This document shows positions 22,836 through 53,900 of a stretch of DNA of 64,000 nucleotides, in pieces. Below the pieces are notes generated by a model that was not told where the DNA came from, did no database searches, and was given only the letters and a program-made list of their open reading frames with translations. Source of the stretch: Glandiceps talaboti (lineage: Eukaryota; Hemichordata; Enteropneusta; Spengelidae); contig NC_135560.1 of the NCBI RefSeq assembly GCF_964340395.1, forward strand, positions 13,232,598-13,296,597, written 5' to 3'. Position 1 is the stretch's first letter; the number at the start of each line of letters is the position of its first letter. The position numbers were made by a program, and so were the translations under genes.

Positions 22836-24407
22836 TCAGATATTTTTTGTCATCTTCACTTTATCTGGGTCTGGATATTGTGGATTTTCAATGACACCTT
22901 CACCAAATTTCAATTCTAGGAATTCTCTATAATTATTTGGCACAGAGACTTGCATTCCTATAAATTCTATTTTGTCCAGTGGTTTCAGATAATGTTCCGG
23001 GAATTCTGTATCTTGTCTATGTGTCTTAATCCAAGAGTCCTTCGTCATTATGCCATCTTTTTCATAAAATGGGAATATATCCACATGCATGTGATTTGTT
23101 GAACTGTACTGTACACGGAAGAAGTCTCCTTCCTGTGCCTTTTCCCATACATATCCATCGCGATCTACAACCGGATCCCCGACATCAAGATCTTTAAGTT
23201 GATCACACTTGGCAACATCTTCTTTGTATATTCCAATATCGACATCATAATCCCATGGAATTACATCACCCTGTCTAGCAGCACCTAGCAAACTACCTCC
23301 TTCTAACCAGTAACGTACTCCAGCTGATTCTAAAATCTCAAACACATATGCTGCAGTGTATTTTAAATGCTTCATACAACAAGGTGGGGTCCATTTCTGA
23401 TGATACAAGTATTCTGGCATGTCGTCCACAATAGTACCAAAACACCTTGATGTCCCTTTGCTGCATCCATACCAGTCCGTTAGACCATCTGTCTGTACGA
23501 CTTGCTTGATGCCAAAATCGTTGTAAAGCGAGGTCAGTTTTTCTTGATGACTGTTTGTATATTTCCAACGAGAATGAGGATTTTTATACAACCTGCTAAA
23601 AGACACTGACTGACTCGAAGTCATCAACATCACTTTCCATTTCCGTAAACTTGTTTGGATGTACAAGCTATCAGGTAGTGGTCTAGCATAAGGATGACTC
23701 AAACACATAAAGTCGTGTTTGTGCATCAATATAGCATGTACACCAGTGACAGCATCACATATATTTTTCTCAGACTTAGAATAAGTCATGTTCCATCCTC
23801 TCAAATCAACGCTCAATGATAAACACTCTGCCTGGTCGTTCTCCTCGACTGTGTCTACCTTCAATGCTATTGCACGTACATTGGTTGTCCCATGAGATTG
23901 TCTATACGACTTGAGTTTGGTGATCATTGATTCTAAAATCTTCGATGTATGTAAACGTATTCCGTCTGGTAAAAACAGTAAAAATTCAGTATGGATATAG
24001 TTTTCGGGTTTAGATTCAGCGTGAGATTTATCAAGTGGCGCCGTCAATGTTATTACCTTTACTTCGTTGTCCACGTTCCTTGGCACGTCAAGTGGCGGAT
24101 ATGGCTTCTTGTCAGCAATCACTACGACTGGAAGGGTTGGAAAAATATTGAAAACTGATTTTATCGTCTCTGATATCCCGTTATCGTAATCCTCAAATTC
24201 CCGAAGGATAACAGTGGTTTGTTCATGAGGCTGGAGTGTTTTTCCATCGGGTATGGCCCGACGATCGTCATCATCTTCGTCGGCCAGGGTGGCTTCATCG
24301 TGATATTGGTCGTCTAAACGTTGCTGCGTCCTTGCAACGTAATAAAGACCGACAAAATTCACACATATAGCGATAACTAAAAGTCCCTGGCACCTGGTTA
24401 TCCTCAT
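22836..24407 (-). CDS. FKRP: Fukutin-related protein (ribitol-5-phosphate transferase), single exon
   Basis: In vertebrates FKRP is a type II Golgi enzyme that adds the second ribitol-5-phosphate of the tandem pair from CDP-ribitol to the O-mannosyl glycan of alpha-dystroglycan. The ORF is intact at 523 residues against 495 in human. The start MRITRCQ matches the vertebrate start MRLTRCQ, and a membrane anchor follows at about 8-24. A stem and GT-like region (about 60-300) lead to the LicD-type catalytic domain: WYGC and RCFG (Cys315, Cys322) with PPCC (Cys343-344) form the family's zinc site. YWLEGGSLLGAARQGDVIPW is followed by the DxDxD motif D386-Y-D388-V-D390. GDFFRVQYS, HVDIFPFY and the end LELKFGEGVIENPQYPDP are also conserved. 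A single coding exon agrees with vertebrate FKRP. All key residues are present. Confidence 0.96.
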   Translation of the reverse strand: MRITRCQGLLVIAICVNFVGLYYVARTQQRLDDQYHDEATLADEDDDDRRAIPDGKTLQPHEQTTVILREFEDYDNGISETIKSVFNIFPTLPVVVIADKKPYPPLDVPRNVDNEVKVITLTAPLDKSHAESKPENYIHTEFLLFLPDGIRLHTSKILESMITKLKSYRQSHGTTNVRAIALKVDTVEENDQAECLSLSVDLRGWNMTYSKSEKNICDAVTGVHAILMHKHDFMCLSHPYARPLPDSLYIQTSLRKWKVMLMTSSQSVSFSRLYKNPHSRWKYTNSHQEKLTSLYNDFGIKQVVQTDGLTDWYGCSKGTSRCFGTIVDDMPEYLYHQKWTPPCCMKHLKYTAAYVFEILESAGVRYWLEGGSLLGAARQGDVIPWDYDVDIGIYKEDVAKCDQLKDLDVGDPVVDRDGYVWEKAQEGDFFRVQYSSTNHMHVDIFPFYEKDGIMTKDSWIKTHRQDTEFPEHYLKPLDKIEFIGMQVSVPNNYREFLELKFGEGVIENPQYPDPDKVKMTKNI

Positions 24408-24620
24408 TGAGCTCCAAGATCAAGTTACAGCGAGAGGATGGGATGGGAAAGTCATTCATCACTGGAAGACGCCATATTGGAATATGCTGAAATCGGATTC
24501 GGATTCTAATTCTCATTCAGAATCGGAATCATATTTTTGTGGCGCTCCAATTTTTAAAGCCTCCAACAGTGAAGTGAAGATGACTGAGTCAGTTTTCGGC
24601 GATGTTTTAATTCCGCTAGC
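24408..24620 (-). promoter_or_regulatory. FKRP 5' untranslated and promoter region
   Basis: Read on the minus strand, CCAATATGGCGTCTTCC lies at 24480-24464, about 60 bases before the start codon. This YY1-type motif often sits at transcription starts of broadly expressed animal genes. The same 11-mer CCAATATGGCG occurs in the CpG-rich block at 4646. Upstream is a small imperfect palindrome of GATTCGGATTC-type units (24490-24530). The start site is inferred. Confidence 0.5.
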
Positions 24621-25936: not shown

Positions 25937-43621
<17,685 letters not shown>

Positions 43622-47940: not shown

Positions 47941-50900
47941 CTACACAAGTTCCTCTTGATCCAAGTCAAATTTTGTTTTGAGTACTGTGACTGGTTTCTT
48001 TTCTGATTCCTCTAAATAAGCATTCTCTTGCATCTCGTATCGATGAGAGAGTAAATTCCGGAAGCCAATTTCACTCAGCCCTAGATCACTAGAAAGAATC
48101 ACTGGCCAGTCATACTTGAAATCGGCAATTGCTTCCTGGTCGAATGACACATCACCTAGTGTGTTGACATGGTTGAATGGATTGTAATTGACTTGTCTAT
48201 CTTCACAGGGTAACTCTAAAGAGAATTCAGGGACGGCTGGTGGATCTTTCCTGGTTAATATTAGTGGAATCTCCATGGCATGTTCAAACCATTTCTGAGT
48301 ATAAGGAAATTATAGAAATTAGAATGATGGAAACTTTAAGGCTGCAACAGGACCAGTTTTTTAAAACCATTTTGTTAGAGATGATGATTCGCACTAAAAT
48401 TGCACATAATTTGATTTTTCCTTTATTTTCACACAGTGTGAATATTTTACATATTTAAAATTAATTTGGTTATTAGATATTATGAAACGATATCACATTA
48501 ACATGTATTCAAAAATCTTCTTACGTTACAAAGTTCATTCACATTTAAATTCATGCCACAGACGTAAAAGTAAGAAGTTTGTATTGAGTTGTGAATTAAT
48601 GTTTTGACTGTTATACAAATGAAGTAAAAAGTTCATTTTTGTAAAACTATTTGTAATGTGCTAGAACAACAAAAGAAGACTTACCACATTATTTTTCAGA
48701 ATGTGAAACACCTGCAACAACGACTTCTCACCTGGAATGGTGTTGGAAAAAAATGGAGGAAAAATATCAATATCAATGGTTTTTGAATGAAGGTAAGGGT
48801 GAAGACATTAGTGTTAGTGTTACCTTCATGAAAAGGTGGAAATACAGAAAGTGAAGTTCTTCTTCAAAGGGTTGCTGAACTAACAGTAAGTGGAAAACAA
48901 ACCAAACACAGAAGGAGAATTAGATGTTTTTCCCCATTAATTTTCTTCATTCAGCCAAGGGAAATACGAGTGACCTAAGGGTACTCGTAAGCGATTCGTA
49001 GTGACAACCCTTAGGTCACTCATATTTTCCTGCAGAATGAAGAAACATATTGGAGAATAACATAATTATACAAGCAACTCAGGCTGTGTTATAATAGTCA
49101 ATGTGCATGTAAAAGAACATAAAATGAAGTATTCATGATTATTTTATTTGAAGGTTTACAACTATAAGTCATGAATATTAATGTTTGCAGCAATCATACA
49201 TAATTTATGCAATGTAAAATTATGAATTATTCTCCACAACCAAAAGTTTATAAAAAAATACCTTCCTGGAGTGACATTCACCTTTGAACACATATGAAAT
49301 CAGTCTCAGGAGCTTGAATGATACTTGAGAAACATATGCATTGTTTGCTGTCATACAACATTCATTCTTGGAAGCTATTTTGAAGGGAGAAATAAATAAA
49401 GAGTTTTTTACCTTCTGAAGTGTTACAGATCTCATGGGATTGGATTGTCAGATAATATTCCATAAAATCCGTAGGGATACCTTCAGTAGAATATGCCTCA
49501 ATTTCAGAATATGCCCTGCAATGTACAAATAAAAATATGAGTCAAACATCCAATGTACAAACACACTGTTTTTATTCAATACAAGTCTTTTACATTCAAA
49601 GACAAACACTATTTAATGACAGTGTGAAATATGGTTGTACAATTCAGTGGTAAGTTCATAACATCACACATATAGCAAAGACTACTCATAACACATACTG
49701 ATGTTAATTAACCAATATAAATTGATTGTACATAGTACAAGATATTAAGAAATGGGACAATGTCAGTGTGACTGGATGAATTGTCTTTGTATCAAACTCT
49801 TGAGTCGTGGTGAAAGACAAATTGTGGCTCTTTGACCTGAAAATGTTGATCAGGGTCAAAGGTCAAGGTCTCATTAGGTGCCTCTATTGATAATGTGAGA
49901 TAGACACTTGAGTGGTTGGTGGTGGTGGTGGTGGTGGTGGTGGTGCTATAAATAAATGATAATAACAGATACAGCTCTGCCTATCTGCCAGTCTGTCTGT
50001 CTGTCTCGCTCACTCTCTCTCGTCACAGATTTGATATGTACTGTACAGGTTTATGTACAAGAAAACTGTGTGTATTTAGAGGAAACAAAAAACTCACTCA
50101 TTTCTAAGTTGTGATACTATGACTTCAATTTGCCGTGGCAACCAATCACAATGGACTTTGAGGAATATATGAGCCAGCTTAGACATACTACTCTTGTTGC
50201 CTGTCAAAATAAATCAAAATGTGAAATTAGAGAAAGAACGTAAGTTTTATATCATACAGTTGATGGTCAAACTAAGATTCTTGTCAGCAGGATACAAAAT
50301 TGGTATAATTATATGTTGTCTAACATACAATATACTTATACCCAATAAATATCAGCTATGTAAATTATGTCTTGTCTATTACACCATATACTTACCATAT
50401 GTAGATGTTGTGAGTATAGGGTATATACTATCAGCTATGTGAATTACATTGTCTATTACACCATATACTTACCATATGTAGATGTTGTGAGTATAGGTAT
50501 ATACTATCAGCTATGTGAATTACATTGTCTATCACACCATATACTTACCATATGTAGATGTTGTGAGTATAAGGTATATACTATCAGCTATGTGAATTAC
50601 ATTGTCTATTACACCATATACTTACCATATGTAGATGTTGTGAGTATAAGGTATATACTATCAGCTATGTGAATTACATTGTCTATTACACCATATACTT
50701 ACCATATGTAGATGTTGTGAGTATAGGGTATATACTGTCAGCTATGTGAATTACATTGTCTATCACACCATATACTTACCATATGTAGATGTTGTGAGTA
50801 TAAGGTATATACTATCAGCTATGTGAATTACATTGTCTATTACACCATATACTTACCATATGTAGATGTTGTGAGTATAGGTATATACTATCAGCTATGT

Positions 50901-53900
50901 GAATTACATTGTCTATCACACCATATACATGTACTTACCATATGTAGATGTTGTGAGTATAGGGTATACCGGTATACTATCAGCTATGTGAATTACGTTG
51001 TCTATCACACCATATACTTACCATATGTAGATGTTGTGAGTATAGGTATATACTATCAGCTATGTGAATTACATTGTCTATCACACCATATACATGTACT
51101 TACCATATGTAGATGTTGTGAGTATAGGGTATACCGGTATACTATCAGCTATGTGAATTACATTGTCTATCACACCATATACATATACTTACCATATGTA
51201 GATGTTGTGAGTATAGGGTATATACTATCAGCTATGTGAATTACGTTGTCTATTACACCAGCAGCAGTTTCTTCATTTAACATGTCACTCAATCCTTCAC
51301 GGTCTTGCAATTTGTTGAAAAGACAACTTGCTATGATCTGTGTAATAAAACAAAAGGAGTATTTCAGCTGTAAGTTATTTTATATGAGATCATACTCAAA
51401 GGTATTATGGTATCTCATGTAAGTGGTACTCTAAGGTGACGACCATAAGGATGATATTCATATTTTGAGCGAAGTTGGTGATTTGATTCTTTGTTGATTT
51501 TAGTACGAGTCTTCACAACTTCGGACAGTTTTAACTTGGTGCTGTCAACACTTCATACAGTACTGACAACCTTTCACACCTATCAAGTTTACATTGAATT
51601 CATCATCATGACAGTGTTACCATATTGGAGCTTACATACCTGCAAGCCAATACAGTTGTGGGCAGTCCTGATATCAGTGTCTTGTAACTTAGTCTGTAAA
51701 TGTTTGAAAAACACACACAGCGGAGTAGGCATTGTTGGGATTTCTTCTGTTAACTTGATGATCAAACCTCTAATGGCATTGAACAAGGGATCCATGGGAC
51801 CTGAAACAAAGGTGGAATATAGAGATTTAAAACTGAACTAGAACCAGATTCGTAAGTTTAGACGTTTCTTGTTAAAGGTGACCGTTGACTCTGGAATGAC
51901 TCCTTATCACAGTATGACAGTAAAAACTTGTGATTTCTGACCCTGGGGTGACAATGACATTGGTGACCCCTGAGCATGTATCAATGAAACTGGCAACCCC
52001 TGAACCTGCATTACAAACAAGTTGGTGACCTATGACTCATATAAGACAATTAATAACTGGTGACCCCTGAGCCCAGTACAACAATCAAACTGGTGACACA
52101 GTAAAAGAATCAAATTGTATTTTGCTTTTATCCATTAGATAACATTTTCCTATGTATCGTTTTCCTGGTCTCGTGAAATAAATTATTACTTTGATATGTA
52201 AACTGCTGACCAAGGATGACAATTAATAACTGGTGACCCCTGACCCCAGTATGAAATTAAACTATCTTTAATATTTTTAGTAAAACCTTAGCATGTAATA
52301 CAGATTATGCTGTTACCATGGTGTTTGATGTCCTTGTCCTTGTTAGCTGGTTTACAACCACATGGTAATTCTTTCAGGATTTCTGAGAAGGAAGGAACAA
52401 TGCTGTCCTTGGTTTCTGTATCCACTATCAGTAGTTTTATCACTGACTTGATGATTCTAAAAAAATATGATGAAATACATGTAGAGTAAGAATTTACAAT
52501 AAACTCATAAATGTTAACACCCATTCATGACTAATCAGTTTGTGACACAGAGAGCATTTTTTTGCGTACTTTTGTTCATTCAGAAATGTACACAGTCATG
52601 ACATTGTCAAATACAACACATGCTCATGGTGTGATGGCTTCATACACACTCTCTAACCAGGCAGGACTGGGTACAGTTACTTACCTATCAACCCATGGTG
52701 TGATGGCTTCATACACACTCTCTAACCAGGCAGGAATAGCTGCTGTCTTCCCAGGTATACAGTTCTGATCAAATATCTCCAAATTCTCATCCCTGTAGAA
52801 AAAAAACAAACTTTGAATGTTGTTGCATGAAGGAGAGTTATATTCTAGTAATTATGCTTACTGGAGATAATATGTGTAACTGATTACATAATGCTATCTA
52901 CCAAGTGAAATACGTAATAATGGGATTTCAGTAAAATAATAAAATTTGACTTCGTCATTGTGTATTTTATTTTCATTGATGTTATTTACTTGTTTCTAGG
53001 TGGATATACTGGTTCAGGGGGTAATTTAAGTCAATTTTAATCCAGACTTCTTTTGAACTTAAAGCTGCACTAGATACAACTGAAAAGTTAAAAAACCTTT
53101 TTGGTTAGGAATGATAATTTACTAGCAAGATTGTACATTGTGAACAGTATTGCATCAGGAAACATATTTTTTGTAGTTCTATGCACGAGAAATCAAATTA
53201 AATTGATTTTTGGGTTTTTCCCAAAATCAGTGCCCTCAACATCGATCATGATTTCAACCTGTTCCTATTCTGCTTATGGATAATATTGACCACTGATTGA
53301 CATGTACAATGTCTAATTATTGGTATTTTAGCAATTTTCAGTGAATATATTGTAGTTGTCTGATTGAACAAATGATACAACTAGTACATTTTCAACATGG
53401 TGACAGATTCAAAACAGAGCTTTCATTCAAGATTTAAACTTACCACTACACAACTTAAGGATAATATTAACCACTGATTAACAGACACAACATTTTTTTT
53501 TTCTTTTTAAAAAAAAAAAAATAATTGACTAATTTCCAGTGAATATATCTTCGGTTATTTGATGAGAAAAATTTACCAGTGGCAGCTAGTGCAGGTTTAA
53601 GAGATACATTCACACACAATATACAATAACAAAAAAGCAAAAAAAAAAAGCAAAAAAAAAAAAAAAAAAAAAAAGCAAAAAAAAAAAAGCACACTTGATT
53701 GACTAAATGACACAAATACCAAGTATTTTGATGTGTTGAAATAACACCTACTTTTCAATCATAGCCATGAGGACATTAGACAGTGCTATAGGTTGGTTCT
53801 TACACAGAACTAATACATCTACAATTGGTTGTACACAGTCAGGGATATCTCGACTACTAGATGATACACAACTGCTTCCTGGGCAACAGACTCCTCTACA

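Follow-up and report, generated by a model that had tools for sequence, protein, structure and literature searches.

Eleven identical splice donors in a minisatellite at a presumed exon end of a DUF4495 gene in Glandiceps talaboti

A gene on the minus strand of the hemichordate Glandiceps talaboti carries a minisatellite whose units appear to repeat the 3' end of a coding exon (exon D) together with its splice donor. Eleven full units stand in tandem, all with the same donor over nine bases, in the 64,000-nucleotide stretch of DNA that was analysed (the window). The available data make it probable that this is a homogenised minisatellite of the kind called mirages in amphioxus, mostly tolerated by the gene, with the first donor chosen in splicing. 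Specifically, some 77 bp of a DUF4495 (KIAA0825-like) gene, comprising the 3' end of exon D and its donor, would have been duplicated in tandem. The array presumably then grew and was homogenised, either by slippage or by unequal exchange, so that ten complete decoy exon-ends and one decayed edge copy now stand in the intron. The spliceosome would most likely take the first donor, at 51192, because it alone among the eleven closes an exon of ordinary size (145 nt) with the frame open. Chance use of a decoy would yield a message stopped at 51172, which should be destroyed by nonsense-mediated decay (NMD). The structure would be mainly tolerated because misspliced messages are expected to be removed in this way.

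The tandem array itself is confirmed as real. Tandem Repeats Finder reports a minisatellite at 50350-51260 (period 77, 11.5 copies, score 1408), and a separate repeat search recovers 11 copies of the array core. Split along the minus strand, the array consists of 11 full units of 76-89 bp followed by a decayed twelfth copy, which bears out a preliminary description of eleven tandem copies of about 77 bases. The full units, U1 to U11, start at 51259, 51176, 51087, 51011, 50922, 50846, 50769, 50692, 50615, 50538 and 50462 and measure, in that order, 83, 89, 76, 89, 76, 77, 77, 77, 77, 76 and 77 bp. In minus-strand orientation, each comprises an exon-like stretch of 66-73 nt, then the donor ATG/GTAAGT (the slash marks the junction) and a few bases of intron. 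The donor is present in 11 of the 11 full units and absent from the twelfth copy. Of exon D, 145 nt long, the unit covers 67 nt, and the earlier proposal that the unit is exon-derived and retains an intact GTAAGT is supported, provided that exon D ends at 51193. Exact ATGGTAAGT occurs 11 times on the two strands of the window, every time in a full unit, compared with 1.04 occurrences expected by chance; none of 100 dinucleotide shuffles reached 11. A perfect 14-bp palindrome, GTATACCGGTATAC, lies at 50964-50977 and 51129-51142, in the exonic part of both 89-bp units.

The host gene matches Pfam DUF4495 (PF14906) with an E of 2.3e-37 in a join of two stretches (58244-57347), and a crude join of 633 residues reaches further, over positions 67-246 of the 319 in the profile. 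By this profile match it is a DUF4495 gene, presumably KIAA0825-like, as DUF4495 is the domain of KIAA0825. An RNF213-like identity was dropped once Pfam gave DUF4495, and naming by solved structures returned chance-level matches (best E 0.3 and 0.86). The DUF4495 match stops before exon A, and homology gives the end of exon D no confirmation; exons B-D alone match no Pfam family up to E 1. The end of exon D drew 10 pattern matches in a prokaryotic contig collection and the DUF4495 region 6 in a viral one, none of them confirmed, and in both collections a miss was expected. Exons A-F were placed by splice context and frame (Table 1), and the joined frame is open across all six when donor 51192 is used. 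Exon D is bounded by the acceptor ...TTATTACACAG/ATC and the donor ATATG/GTAAGT, and exons A-C, E and F measure 103-161 nt.

Table 1. Positions of the modelled exons, donors, array parts and duplicated segments
Feature	Position	Strand	Basis
Exon A	52792-52685	-	splice context and frame
Exon A segment, source of duplicate	52694-52735	-	self-comparison
Intronic 42-bp copy of that segment, 100% identity, in next intron	52625-52666	-	self-comparison
Exon B	52456-52317	-	splice context and frame
Exon C, upstream of D	51800-51640	-	splice context and frame
Exon D (presumed), 145 nt; phase 0 at its start, phase 1 at its end; its final 67 nt form the exonic part of U1	51337-51193	-	splice context, frame, codon score
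Weak alternative donor GTGTAA, score 2.5, phase 1 (79-nt exon), at exon-side array edge	51253..51258	-	donor score and frame
Presumed true donor GTAAGT, score 10.1	51187..51192	-	splicing to exon E leaves frame open
Ten inner (decoy) units U2-U11, each with ATG/GTAAGT	50386..51176	-	repeat split, alignment, motif count
TGA TAG, in frame for any of ten inner GTAAGT donors, 165 nt into exon D	51167..51172	-	frame reading
Inner donors U2-U6, first intron base	51103, 51021, 50938, 50856, 50779	-	
Inner donors U7-U11, first intron base	50702, 50625, 50548, 50472, 50395	-	
Decayed twelfth copy, distal (intron) edge, without GTAAGT; far limit approximate	50300..50385	-	unit alignment, repeat families
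Exon E, downstream partner of D; acceptor TTTTGACAG/GC, phase 1	50200-50098	-	splice context and frame
Exon F	49515-49412	-	splice context and frame

The consequences of using an inner donor can be read from the frame. The preliminary description had held that such use lengthens the exon in steps of 76-89 bases and meets an in-frame TGA soon after the first junction, and both statements hold: with an inner GTAAGT, exon D gains 89-797 nt, growing from 145 to 234-942 nt, and the TGA at 51172-51170, 20 nt beyond the normal junction, is common to all ten inner GTAAGT donors. A stop upstream of further exons makes a message a target of NMD. Since exons E and F lie downstream, misspliced messages are expected to be such targets. 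Copy number could alter how often decoys are used but not the truncated product, because the stop is identical for every inner GTAAGT. The array also contains six further donor-like ATG/GTGTGA sites (score 5.8), at 51175, 51086, 51010, 50921, 50768 and 50537, five of which run into this same stop. The first of them (51175) would close an ordinary-sized exon of 162 nt, in a shifted frame that reaches a stop 243 nt after D begins.

Three functional readings had been offered for the array, namely a tolerated oddity, a sink for U1 snRNP and a copy-number-dependent source of unproductive transcripts. The first fits best by analogy with the amphioxus mirages, because the data of their authors suggest no interference with regular splicing (PMC3087553), and toleration with normal splicing at the first donor appears most likely on that analogy. 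Against the choice of the first donor stand the identity of all 11 donors over nine bases, the weak phase-compatible donor 51258 at the array edge and the ordinary-sized exon offered by 51175. Nor is the first donor favoured by predicted local RNA folding: its six-base unpaired probability is 0.045, while the ten decoys range over 0.008-0.31, with two of them clearly more open. By the same prediction, the donors of the two palindrome-bearing 89-bp units are the least folded among the eleven. Moreover, competing equal strong donors can favour the site nearest the 3' splice site, and such a preference can pick a decoy here, the intron to exon E being 195 nt long from the last decoy versus 992 nt from donor 51192. 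The decoys might matter, as a leaky brake that depends on copy number: as units are added, a larger number of transcripts would be unproductive and NMD-targeted, or the intron would trap a larger amount of U1. The ten decoys do equal the presumed true donor over nine bases, share one stop and offer the shorter introns, but the exons that inner GTAAGT sites create (234-942 nt) are longer than the other five modelled exons, and in amphioxus the authors' data suggest no splicing interference, so that we regard a brake as unlikely, though worth keeping in view.

The reading of tolerated decoys presumes 51193 as the last base of exon D and 51192 as the start of its donor. Two frame-compatible donors are available to exon D, 51192 and 51258, and their scores, 10.1 versus 2.5, rest on consensus frequencies, not on a trained model. 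Between them are encoded 22 residues, GVIDNVIHIADSIYPILTTSTY. The codon log-odds of these last 22 codons are matched by 39 of the 780 intron windows that were free of stops (out of 2970) versus 542 of 699 coding windows, where windows overlap, the coding set is in-sample and the 22 tested codons lie outside the training set. The codons are coding-like because such a score is rare in intron and common in coding windows. In an alignment read by eye, substitutions fall at four sites of the units' exonic part, three of which are synonymous (GTA or GTG, AAC or AAT, GAT or GAC), and the fourth, CCT or CTT, changes P to L. The chance of at least three synonymous sites in four is 0.044, or 0.065 when transitions only are considered, which lends weak support to a coding exonic part. 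The end at 51193 is favoured because its donor scores far higher, the 22 codons are coding-like and three of the four sites are synonymous. Disfavoured, and fairly improbable in our estimate, is a wholly intronic array, in which exon D would end at 51259 after 79 nt with the donor GTGTAA and the GTAAGT sites would be chance donors in an intronic minisatellite. Donor 51258 is phase-compatible with the frame open, the array edge falls at that donor, and the donor of exon E, itself weak, scores 5.3, so weak donors do occur in the host gene; against these points weigh the low score of the 51258 donor itself, the coding look of the 22 codons and, weakly, the mostly synonymous variation.

Under the favoured exon end, the end of exon D appears to have taken part in unit turnover. 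As the preliminary description had noted, the copies are near-identical: any two full units are separated by 0-3 substitutions and 0-3 gaps, two sets of units (U6, U8 and U9; U3, U5 and U10) show no differences among their members, and the same pair of 89 and 76 bp recurs in U2-U3 and U4-U5. U1, the exon copy, is not an outlier, as it has a C in common with U4 and a 6-nt intronic extension in common with U2 and U4. The exon copy would have been involved in homogenisation because its variants also occur in those units. In their exonic part, three of the ten inner units (U3, U5, U10) have a frameshifting 1-nt deletion and two others (U2, U4) an insertion of 6 nt, and exchange could carry such indels into exon D. 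The distal edge of the array is decayed and the exon-side edge intact, an asymmetry that selection on the exon copy would produce, as would polar turnover. Near-identical units, several of them exact, would also suit an assembly in which the copy number or unit order is wrong, the array having been collapsed or expanded, and one amphioxus mirage seemed aberrantly assembled in the draft genome according to its authors (PMC3087553). We consider such an error distinctly improbable, as the diagnostic unit lengths (76, 77, 83 and 89 bp) and the decayed edge copy indicate that the array exists, whatever its exact number. Highly implausible, finally, is that the units are cassette microexons (CACATAG/CTGAT...ATATG/) adding 13 residues each, for which the stretch has the required 39 nt and phase 1-1 in 6 of 11 units, 45 nt in two and a frame-breaking 38 nt in three, since the in-unit acceptor was rejected as weak (score -2.5 versus 2.6 to 8.9 for the six modelled acceptors), a score equalled or bettered by 376 of 902 AGs on the same strand at 47.9-63.9 kb, and the best AG in the whole array scores -0.2.

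The homogenised array of presumed exon ends has close published counterparts. Amphioxus mirages are length-variable tandem repeats that span exon-intron boundaries and keep many splice signals (PMC3087553; PMC3902484), and they occur in Adh3, the globins BflGb6 and BflGb9 and troponin C, with similar imperfect repeats in PGBD5 (PMC3087553, PMC3902484). Their units are homogenised with the copies at cluster boundaries left out, and arrays of this kind have been put forward as a source of new introns (both PMC3087553). Like them, the exon D array has a unit that spans an exon-intron boundary (if exon D ends at 51193), splice signals in its inner copies (here in 11 of 11 full units), homogenised inner units and a decayed boundary copy, although here the boundary copy on the exon side is intact. 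As in BflGb9, it is the 3' boundary of an exon that is duplicated. It differs in the gene concerned and in its 11 full copies that all have the same nine-base donor. With exon D ending at 51193, the array would be a genuine member of the known mirage kind, and it may be a mirage outside the cephalochordates. The window has a GC content of 34.9%, and GC3 in its long open reading frame for fukutin-related protein is 37%; Branchiostoma has a GC of about 41%, so that these values do not point to that genus.

Two further systems share some of these properties. In human segmental-duplication genes, minisatellites likewise lie at exon-intron boundaries, where they are able to change splicing or give rise to new introns (PMC2812944); there, gene structure changed between paralogs with transcript support, whereas the exon D array was read from genomic sequence. 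The polyubiquitin gene UBC has an array of dual-specific splice sites, one per tandem unit (PMC10809524), and thus resembles the exon D array in having many donors on offer. The UBC sites delimit coding monomers and serve as both donor and acceptor (AGGT), while the sites here read TATG/GTAAGT, without AG, and the acceptors in the units are weak, so an array of the UBC type is not supported.

A second duplication in the same gene, which speaks for the mirage reading of the array, involves exon A, a segment of which recurs in the following intron (Table 1). The offset is 69 bp, the implied unit spans the exon A donor at 52684, and the intronic copy is without a donor of its own. This duplication, the decayed twelfth copy and the phase-compatible donor 51258 go beyond the preliminary description. 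Same-strand self-comparison within 2 kb found six repeat places, two of them accounted for by the array at exon D and the duplication of exon A, which suggests that the host gene or genome may be prone to exon-end duplications. The places at 26.5 and 40.7 kb are not exon-end-like by eye, and the two remaining lie at 52.0-52.3 and 53.3-53.5 kb. Exons B and C are separated by an intron that holds two copies, 52045-52091 and 52218-52263, 173 bp apart and 89% alike. Elsewhere in the window, 22836-24419 (-) is the long reading frame that matches fukutin-related protein (Pfam FKRP_N and LicD), and exon-like stretches of an ionotropic glutamate receptor extend, by eye, over 27492-38230 (-), with a Lig_chan match for 28860-29168. 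That region includes long tetranucleotide arrays, among them (TGTC)n at 35428-35661, and near the receptor gene lies a minisatellite of 62-67 bp units (26523-26806), non-coding by eye. A scan of the window against Rfam gave no family at or above its gathering score.

These findings bear on splicing and on the evolution of exon ends. A far-reaching reading, doubtful at present, would join a mirage probably outside the cephalochordates to an exon end that evolves in concert with its intronic copies and to a unit number that sets how large a share of the transcripts is unproductive. With eleven donors that match over nine bases, placed between two acceptors, the array constitutes a natural test of how the spliceosome chooses among equal sites, a choice that pits position and exon size against U1 affinity. 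If the number of units differs between individuals, the dose response would be directly readable. The array also leaves the end of a coding exon open to gene conversion by intronic copies whose frame is shifted.
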